Position numbers and translations under genes: made by a program | Shown here: positions 19,338 through 22,267 of the stretch, one piece after another | How the letters are laid out: the number at the start of each line of letters is the position of its first letter | How positions within the stretch are numbered: position 1 is the first letter of the stretch | Assembly: GCF_000183745.1 (NCBI RefSeq) | Contig: NC_014761.1 | Coordinates: 1,488,001-1,552,000, forward strand | Direction of reading: 5' to 3' | From: Oceanithermus profundus DSM 14977 | Lineage (GTDB): Bacteria > Deinococcota > Deinococci > Deinococcales > Marinithermaceae | Length of the DNA: 64,000 nt | Notes under the pieces: generated by a model | What the model saw: the letters and a program-made list of their open reading frames with translations, nothing else | Told to the model about the DNA's origin: nothing | The model's database searches: none

Positions 19338-19451
19338 GAGACCCCGGGTCGCGCGCCCTTCGGGCGCTTGCCCGGGGTGACGAAGAGATTGTGTGCGAAA
19401 AACAAAACCCCCGTTCCGTACGAGCGGGCCGCAAGCCCGCGGGATCCCGGA
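19338..19451. repeat. Dispersed repeat, copy 1
   Basis: About 114 bp. It begins GAGACCCCGG, contains a hairpin (GCGCCC/GGGCGC), then CCGGGGTGACGA, a TGCGAAAA segment, CGTTCCG and CGCAAG, and ends GATCCCGGA. The same order of blocks returns in copy 2, 246 bp downstream. Confidence 0.7.
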
Positions 19452-19583
19452 TCAAGTCCGGGACAGGCCCCGGATCATGTGAGGGACAGGTCCGGAATCT
19501 CACAGCGCGCGGCTGAGAAGACCTGGGGCCTTATTGGTTGCCGCTACCTGCCGCCATGGTGTTGTGCGTTTTTCAGCAGCAAC

Positions 19584-19692
19584 GAGACCCCGGATCTCGC
19601 TCCGCTCGTCCGGGGTGACGAGGAACGTAGAGGATGCGAAAACACACCCCGTCGTTCCGGACAAGCAGGTCGCAAGACCTGCGCGATCCGGA
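19584..19692. repeat. Dispersed repeat, copy 2
   Basis: About 109 bp with the same block order as copy 1: GAGACCCCGG, hairpin, CCGGGGTGACGA, TGCGAAAACA, CGTTCCGGACAAGC, GTCGCAAGAC, GATCCGGA. The hairpin and loop sequences differ, with compensating changes in the stems. Confidence 0.7.
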
Positions 19693-19826: not shown

Positions 19827-19832
19827 TATACT
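19827..19832 (+). promoter_or_regulatory. Extended -10 box for the lipoprotein-protease gene
   Basis: TGCTATACT gives a TG-extended -10 with a perfect TATACT. About 60 nt of leader follow before the ATG at 19896, which has a GGGGGAG ribosome-binding site 5 nt upstream. Confidence 0.55.
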
Positions 19833-19895
19833 CATTACACCTTCTGCTACCGTCCCTTCCTTGTCATAACGACAGTATTCGGATTGGGGGAGATT

Positions 19896-21699
19896 ATGAA
19901 GAGATTCATCGGGGTTCTCTCTCTGTTCTGCTTGCGCTCTTCGCCGGCTGCTCGACGGGCGGTGAGCCGTGCGGAGGCGGCGACCCGCGGGCGGTAGCGG
20001 AAACGGTGCCGGCGGTGGCGGCGCAGGCTTTGACGCTGCGGTTCGGGCTAGGAAGCGAGGTCGGGCTGCAGGAGGTGGGAAGCCAGGAGGCGGCCTCGCT
20101 GTTGGTGGAAGACGTGGACGGCTACCCGCTGGTCTACCTGACGGTGCTGGGGCCCGAGGCCGCCGGCGGCTTCTGGGAGGCGGCGCGGAGGGCGGTGGCC
20201 GTGGGCGAAGGGCACTACCTGGTGGCCACGGGGGCGAGCACCCTCTACTCCCCTACCCTGTTCGCGGACACCGGGACGGACACCCTGGAGCACCTGCTTT
20301 CGGTGGTGGATGCAATGGGCGGCCCGGAGGCCGTGGCGCGGGTGGTGGGCTTCAACGAGCCGGGGCGCTTCTTCCTGGTGGACCGGGAGGGAAGGTACCG
20401 GGACGGCTACAGCGGCGAGGTGGTAGGCGACGACGAGGTGGCGCAGCTGGCGCAGGCATTCCACGAAACCGTGGAGCGGCTGGCGGAAGAGGACGACTAC
20501 CGGGCCGAGATGGCGCACGTCTGGGCCTGTTTGCTGGGCGAGGCGAGCGAGGAAGAATGTCAAGCCGAAGACGCCTCGGCGGCGGCGCAGGAGGCGCGCC
20601 AGACGGAGGCGGAGCTGCTCGGCAAGCTGGGCTACGACCCGGTGAGCGTGCAACAGGTAGAGGCGCAACCCCAGGCCGAGGGGATGGAACTGGCGGCGAT
20701 GACGGGGCCGGACGGGGAGCTGGACTTCGTCAGGGCGCAGGGGGTGATCGCGGACAGTCAACTGCGAATCTTTTCGAGTGACGGGACGGTGAAACCGCAG
20801 TACAAAGCCGAACATTGTGTCAACTGGTTGTGTTTTGGGAAATATTGGATCGTCGAAGCCCAACACCGGCGGACGGGGAAGCCCGAGTATGATTTCATTG
20901 GACAGAATTGGCAATATAGGTGGGAGTATGACTTCAAGCCCCGCGAGTCCGACGCCGACCTCGACAACTTCACGCTTTACGCTCTACACGGACATGGAAA
21001 AGTTGGCGATCGCCCCATCGGCTGCGCGCCCGCGGCCTTCATCCGGCTGGCAACGTGGTTTCAGTTTGAACGACATGGATACACCGGCAGCTCGAACATT
21101 GACTGGTACGGTGACCATCTAGGCGTCGGCTACGGAAGCGGTGGTTACACAGGCACAGGCGCCAAGATGTACGAACGCAACAAGGCCTTGGGGCACCGTA
21201 TGTTGGCGCTCAAGCGGTACGTGGACGGCTCTGGAAGTTCGAGTGTGGTGTATTACCGACCACAGCTAGCCGAGTACATGCGACGCGCGCCTTCGCCGGT
21301 TCCGGGCTCACCCTCGTTGGCGACTTCGTACGCGGGGCAAACCGTTGGTTGTCCGAACGAGGAAGCGCGATGCGTATTCGCGGTGGAGGGTACATATTTC
21401 TGGTGAATCTGGTTCCGTACATTGGCTGGACCGCGTGGAACGCTGAGGTTTGGAAAATGTATTCGACGGCCTTGAACGCCATGGGCAGTCGAAACGAGCC
21501 CGCTATAGCCATCTACGCCACAGGGGGCGGCAGTTATCATTACAGCCCAGTACTAGAAGCGAGACTTTATAACTGGAGAGTCAAGGCTGACGTACTAGTA
21601 CGCGTTCCCGCCAACGAGAAGTTCGATGAGATTGGCGGAAAGTTCGTCAACATCTCGGCGTTCAAATTGACTGCCGGAGGGTTGTATGGGCTTTGGTAA
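19896..21699 (+). pseudogene. Secreted lipoprotein with C39-like cysteine protease domain, two frameshifts
   Basis: Three frames must be joined to give one protein. The start ATG 19896 (MKRFIGVLSL) is in a different frame from the lipobox LLALFAGC; deleting one CT unit from the (CT)4 at 19917-19924 gives a perfect lipoprotein signal. The long middle frame runs to a stop at 21406 and carries a candidate nucleophile Cys (codon 21023) in IGCAPAAFIRLATW. The candidate His (SYHYSPVLEARLY, codon 21538) lies in a third frame ending at 21699. That frame is open from 21115, and its sequence from about 21286 (GLTLVGDFVRGANRW) reads as continuous protein. The second break is therefore near 21250-21300, consistent with loss of one base. 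The 3' half is less GC-rich than its neighbours. It could instead be assembly error or phase variation. Confidence 0.6.
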
Positions 21700-22267
21700 A
21701 TACGGCCGCAACATCGCACTTCGTGCTGCTCTCCTGGGCCTGCTGGCGCTCGGGCTTACCGCCTGCCCGCAGACGAAGGCGCCGGGGAGCCTGGGCGTTG
21801 GCATCTACGCCACCAATACCGAGCGGTGCGACGACGGGATCAAGGTGGAGGTGGAATTCAATACCTTTGGCCTCTCGGACGGACCCGCCGCCAGCGTACC
21901 CGAGGACGAGAACGTGTATGGGGGCGGCGCCAACTGGCTGTGGGTGAAGCCGGGGAAGGTGGGGTGGATGCGCTGGATGGACGACCCCTACGACCGGGTG
22001 GTACCCGGGGGCGCGCTGCGCATCACCGCGTGGTGCATGCGGGAGGGAATGGCACCGGGTAAGAGCGAGCGTCGATTTGCGCTCGATAACTACGTCATGA
22101 GCAACCATGTACTTGGCGCAATCTTCTCCGTACGAGACATGAGCGCCGATCCCGATATCTCGATGTACGCTGGCTATACCGAGGTCGTGTCCCCCGCGCC
22201 CGGCATCTTTGACTGGGAGGAGTGGTGCGATCTGGGGGTGCCGGGGGATTGTTCGGATATCGAATAA
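21686..22267 (+). CDS. Lipoprotein of unknown function
   Basis: 193 residues. The signal peptide LLGLLALGLTAC ends in a clear lipobox. The mature part has paired Cys residues and many aromatic residues (WLWVKPGKVGWMRWMDD), suggesting a small disulfide-bonded extracellular domain. The ATG has a GGAGGG site and overlaps the end of the protease frame by 14 nt, so the two were one operon. It may act with the broken protease upstream, for example as an inhibitor or partner; this is a guess. Confidence 0.7.
   Translation: MGFGKYGRNIALRAALLGLLALGLTACPQTKAPGSLGVGIYATNTERCDDGIKVEVEFNTFGLSDGPAASVPEDENVYGGGANWLWVKPGKVGWMRWMDDPYDRVVPGGALRITAWCMREGMAPGKSERRFALDNYVMSNHVLGAIFSVRDMSADPDISMYAGYTEVVSPAPGIFDWEEWCDLGVPGDCSDIE

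Follow-up and report, generated by a model that had tools for sequence, protein, structure and literature searches.

Organization of the lipoprotein locus

The stretch of DNA analysed here (hereafter referred to as the window) comprises 64,000 nucleotides of the finished Oceanithermus profundus 506T chromosome (genome label G000), and both the total of 2,439,291 bases and the chromosome length of 2,303,940 bases for this genome match the published values (PMC3111992). The window contains a putative lipoprotein gene in which the start codon and the lipoprotein signal occupy different reading frames, with a short dinucleotide repeat between them. The features of the locus are the following:

19827 to 19832, plus strand: -10-like promoter element TATACT, identified in the DNA alignment of the window with L002 and L003
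Enclosing TATACT, plus strand: 18-base block ATGCTATACTCATTACAC, conserved among Oceanithermus genomes (three in the DNA alignment)
19886 to 19892, plus strand: Shine-Dalgarno sequence GGGGGAG, from the sequence; GGAGGAG in relatives
19896 to 19997, plus strand: short open reading frame of the OFF state, starting at ATG 19896, 33 codons plus stop
19917 to 19924, plus strand: (CT)4 tract CTCTCTCT within the signal-peptide coding region, from the sequence; (CT)5 in two congeners
19928 to 19951, plus strand: end of the signal peptide and lipobox LLALFAGC, in a frame that differs from that of the ATG
19949 to 21283, plus strand: coding region of the mature lipoprotein, main family; 64% identity to G002, 437 codons; under purifying selection
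21271 to 21300, plus strand: second frame break, in the context GACGCGCGCC, where the profile match changes frame
21284 to 21699, plus strand: C-terminal portion of this gene, in a different frame, with the conserved His-Tyr (YHY) region inside
21686 to 22267, plus strand: putative small lipoprotein immediately 3' of the gene, in frame

The ATG start codon (19896-19898) opens a frame that reads MKRFIGVLSLFCLRSSPAARR... and reaches a stop at 19997, and the lipobox, with its Cys codon at 19949-19951, lies in a second frame that stays open as far as 21406. The initial annotation of this DNA had described an ATG at 19896 with a Shine-Dalgarno sequence, a product that begins MKRFIGVLSL and then leaves frame, and a lipobox LLALFAGC off the frame of the ATG, all of which is borne out by the sequence. 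Its prediction that the loss of a single CT unit would create a perfect lipoprotein start is equally correct, as the product would then read MKRFIGVLSVLLALFAGC. A hand count places the ATG in frame with the lipobox only when the number of CT units is 3, 6, 9 and so forth. By count alone the tract is at chance level, with one (CT)4 observed in the window against 1.7 +/- 1.45 expected from shuffled sequences, and it is the comparison with relatives that raises it above chance.

In L002 and L005, too, the gene is followed by an open reading frame equivalent to the small downstream lipoprotein (21686-22267). In the intergenic region 5' of the window gene (positions 19340-19630), CCGGGGTGACGA occurs twice, each time after an inverted repeat of the GAGACCCCGG... 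type, and these units possibly belong to a dispersed repeat element.

Conservation of the repeat-bearing signal peptide in Oceanithermus

A family search showed that G002 and G003, two further Oceanithermus genomes, also have this gene, which in both adjoins ftsZ; the corresponding ftsZ site is empty of a copy in the genome of the window. The promoter block, the Shine-Dalgarno sequence, the ATG and the GTT(CT)n segment align base for base in the window, G002 and G003, with four CT units in the window and five in each of the two congeners. All three alleles are out of frame with the conserved open reading frame, so that counts of four and five are both OFF, on opposite sides of the in-frame count. 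The G002 genome, searched on both strands, has a single (CT)5, which is the tract of the lipoprotein gene. The repeat occurs three times in G003, where two of the occurrences are copies of the 5' region of the lipoprotein gene, and is absent from G000, G005 and G006. Elsewhere in G003, and in G004, (CT)5 sites were set aside as unrelated to lipoproteins. Tracts of four to five CT units are short for a fast switch, which counts against phase variation.

The two copies of the 5' region in G003 (L034 1-120, on the minus strand of G003:C102, and L035 5020-5200, on G003:C23) are located one beside ftsZ and the other beside a GIY-YIG-like gene, as in the window. They are identical over their last ~75 bases, including the (CT)5 tract, and different further upstream, suggesting gene conversion or recent copying. 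One of the G003 contigs ends 8 bases past the (CT)5 tract.

Because repeat tracts can be miscounted, and because one gene here carries two frame breaks, a sequencing or assembly error in the repeat has to be considered, and we assign it almost no probability. The genome of O. profundus 506T was finished from Illumina and 454 data at 282.8x coverage, with an error rate below 1 in 100,000 (PMC3111992), which makes an assembly error unlikely. Neither of the two frame breaks lies in a homopolymer, and independent assemblies share the out-of-frame architecture with other repeat counts and units. Tracts of three CT units in relatives, which the initial annotation had named as the mark of such an error, were absent, both congeners carrying (CT)5.

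Different repeats at the same site in other genera

In G012, which represents another genus of the same family as Oceanithermus, two distant homologs of the lipoprotein carry a tetranucleotide tract directly after the Shine-Dalgarno-preceded ATG, (AAGG)6 in one case and (GAAG)3 in the other, and both are out of frame. A third lipoprotein of this genome, unrelated to the main family (L127 94-971, G012:C17), has an (AAGG)n tract after its ATG and is also OFF; other families in this genus may use the same switch.

A class-wide profile search identified further homologs in the genus that includes Meiothermus ruber 21T (G030), in which the tract site is occupied by a heptamer, (TTGGTCG)1-7. Two or more lipoprotein families share this heptamer tract, among them the main family and a smaller partner of ~200 residues, and in the twelve heptamer loci that were aligned the large length differences fall within the tract. 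The lipobox takes the forms LFAGC, LLAGC, LLAAC and LASC in the long frames, and a lipobox with invariant Cys is in frame in the single ON allele described below and in the tract-free homologs, as required of a lipoprotein signal peptide. The units are 2, 4 and 7 nucleotides long, none of them a multiple of three, and all lie in a 5' coding position. Read in frame, they would add residues that are hydrophobic or basic (LVVGRWS for the heptamer, KEGR for AAGG and Leu-Ser for CT). The repeat units appear to be interchangeable, the site being fixed and the unit (CT, AAGG or TTGGTCG) replaced between genera.

Many heptamer loci also have, immediately 5' of the Shine-Dalgarno sequence, an inverted repeat in a shared leader, CCAGGCT...AGCCTGG (alignment A8), as seen in L116 (~2935-2970), L117, L119, L121 and L126. 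A riboswitch or other known RNA in the leader was discarded, since the leaders searched gave no Rfam match up to E = 1. Between G039 and G030, the partner gene and the flanks of its tract are ~97% identical (L115 1700-2800 versus L117, minus strand), and upstream of the leader the L115 and L117 sequences are unrelated, as if leader, tract and gene moved together as a cassette. No plasmid-borne copies were found in PLSDB. A long heptamer run on a viral contig (L181 3929-4027) was dismissed as an unrelated coincidence of unit: it lies opposite the strand of a phage gene, and this gene encodes a PTTNDQR linker repeat.

Allele states, selection and tract variability

The state of every allele was assigned with a single rule, which compares the frame of the Shine-Dalgarno-preceded ATG with the long downstream frame. 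Under this rule, 20 of the 21 tract-bearing loci are OFF and one is ON. The sole ON allele (G040:1520k) belongs to the partner family, begins with MRFSSFGCWLLVAGCWLLVAGLGLLITAC... and continues into the partner protein, confirming the start codon and the type of product. Three tract-free homologs (G108, G014 and G067) are likewise in frame from their own ATG. No ON allele of the CT-bearing gene or of the main family was present among the 21 tract loci. If one third of the alleles were ON at random (two thirds OFF expected), at most one ON allele in 21 would have a probability of P = 0.0023, but the loci are partly dependent through paralogy and shared ancestry, and the excess of OFF alleles is therefore only a hint, not proof, of a favoured OFF state.

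The main-family protein beyond the tract is under purifying selection. Estimates of dN/dS range from 0.04 to 0.32 for main-family pairs in Oceanithermus and from 0.05 to 0.14 among four genomes of the Meiothermus genus, many with high dS. In at least eight copies, each about 540-620 codons long (G002, G034, G042, G040, G030-134k, G026, G033:C212 and G012:C225), the reading frame is open except at the tract. For the partner gene of G039 versus G030, dS is 0.057 and the proteins are 95% identical; the 627-nt open reading frame differs by substitutions only, with no indel, and the tract differs by 35 nt, equal to five heptamers, with a change of frame. These loci therefore present the sequence features used to recognize simple sequence repeat (SSR) contingency loci, namely a non-triplet repeat in the 5' coding region and a unit count that varies between close relatives, all comparisons here being between species.

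The strong conservation of these genes, despite nearly all of their alleles being out of frame, would also be accounted for by constitutive expression, achieved through recoding (ribosomal frameshifting or transcriptional slippage) or through use of another start codon, and some loci do offer a GTG or TTG in the lipobox frame (GTG in G042). We regard this explanation as quite improbable. The shift needed for recoding varies, the frame difference being 2 in 12 loci and 1 in 8, so that no single frameshift rule fits, and a single programmed frameshift was rejected on this ground. In tract-free relatives, as in the ON allele, the Shine-Dalgarno-preceded ATG is used directly, and heptamer and tetramer tracts are not, to our knowledge, known slippery sites. 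A usable start codon in the long frame, raised in the initial annotation as the finding that would speak against a switch, has no credible candidate in the two relatives. In G003, the lipobox frame opens after a TGA that shares bases with the ATG, and from this last stop to the Cys codon it contains no ATG, GTG or TTG, which excludes an alternative start there. The only candidate in G002 is a TTG lacking a Shine-Dalgarno sequence at proper spacing. In the window, the only candidates are ATGs that overlap the conserved promoter block or lie upstream of it and do not remain in frame in G003, and they were likewise rejected.

A second frame break in the window copy

Further along the gene in the window, at ~21271-21283, the profile match leaves the frame that ends at 21406 and continues in the one that ends at 21699, and the conserved C-terminal His-Tyr region sits in this second frame. 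This break, in the same gene, had been overlooked in the initial annotation. Since it removes the conserved C-terminus, a change in the CT tract would not by itself be enough to give a full product in O. profundus 506T, and the window copy is probably an OFF and decaying member of its family. The slipped-strand switch that had been proposed for this tract finds its support at the level of the family, in the position of the tract, its counts, the replacement of its unit, purifying selection and one ON allele.

In a rival reading, these genes are ordinary pseudogenes, frameshifted at easily broken repeats and decaying without switching back. Such a reading would agree with the OFF state of all but one of the tract loci, with the additional frame breaks found in five copies (the window copy, G012:C108, G030:2.953M, G033:C115 and G040:800k) and with the remnant copies in G037 and G038:149k. 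It is harder to reconcile with the eight or more long copies that are broken at the tract only, with dN/dS values of 0.04-0.14 on long branches, with the recurrence of unrelated unit types at one site, and with tract-free homologs in frame and a tract-bearing allele that is ON. We consider pseudogene decay unlikely as an account of the family, and it may be right for the fate of the window copy.

Sequence features of the lipoprotein

The lipoprotein has no sequence match in Pfam, NCBIfam or PDB. Alignment A5 shows invariant Gln and Trp residues, an invariant Gly-Cys pair and a nearly invariant His-Tyr/Phe pair. The order Gln...Gly-Cys-Gly...His-Tyr resembles that of papain-like peptidases (papain-like or C39-like), which may serve as a lead only. 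No family or fold match placed the protein among the papain-like or C39-like cysteine peptidases, and we do not assign it to them; an AlphaFold model of the window protein was discarded because of its pLDDT of 38.7.

Discussion

With a probability of roughly three in four, we conclude that the gene in the window belongs to a Thermales lipoprotein family that appears to undergo slipped-strand translational phase variation, of which it would be an OFF and probably decaying member. In the mechanism proposed here, a simple sequence repeat is placed between the start codon and the lipobox, and replication slippage would add or remove units, thereby shifting the frame. At CT counts of 3, 6, 9 and so forth (for other units, at the equivalent counts), the full signal peptide would be read and the lipoprotein presumably exported; at any other count, translation would yield only a brief peptide of no use. 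Since the signal peptide that holds the tract is cleaved off, ON alleles of different length should yield the same mature protein. Switching would be reversible within a strain and would presumably bring a benefit.

A wider formulation, which we advance tentatively and rate at somewhat below even odds, is that the Thermales possess a dispersed, cassette-like switch, in which a conserved leader, start codon and repeat-bearing signal peptide are set on several lipoprotein families, with the position of the repeat fixed and its unit (2, 4 or 7 nt) replaced between genera. OFF would then be the selected default, and the conservation of the proteins would be owed to a benefit provided by rare ON cells.

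Most known cases of repeat-driven phase variation are in host-associated bacteria. The opa genes of Neisseria carry CTCTT repeats in the signal-peptide coding region, and the Thermales loci resemble them in having the repeat in signal-peptide coding sequence, such that ON lengths would lead to the same mature surface protein, and in forming a dispersed multigene family with a common 5' end. They differ from opa in encoding a lipoprotein and no beta-barrel, in having an unrelated repeat and in belonging to another phylum, and the switch in the Thermales is a predicted one. The SSR contingency loci of Haemophilus influenzae, which include lipopolysaccharide genes and mod, have repeats, tetranucleotides among them, in the 5' part of their coding sequences (PMC2651432). 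As in Haemophilus, the units are not multiples of three, lie just inside the 5' coding region and would switch translation ON or OFF, and the predicted products are envelope-associated. Unlike the Haemophilus loci, those of the Thermales place the tract in a lipoprotein signal peptide, occur in free-living thermophiles, have few units (1-8) and use a type of unit that depends on the genus within one protein family. Conserved genes with frame transitions at repeats are classed as phase variation in the GeneTack clusters (PMC3711429), and the main text of that study mentions neither Meiothermus nor Oceanithermus. In the open-access papers searched, we found no report of repeat-driven phase variation in the Thermus/Meiothermus/Oceanithermus group.

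Two aspects of these loci are unusual: at one fixed site the repeat unit has been replaced from genus to genus, and genes that almost all sequenced genomes carry in the OFF state are strongly conserved. The loci are present in the sequenced type strains O. profundus 506T and Meiothermus ruber 21T. A switch of this kind in free-living thermophiles would suggest a selective pressure other than immune evasion, such as that exerted by phages or competitors.
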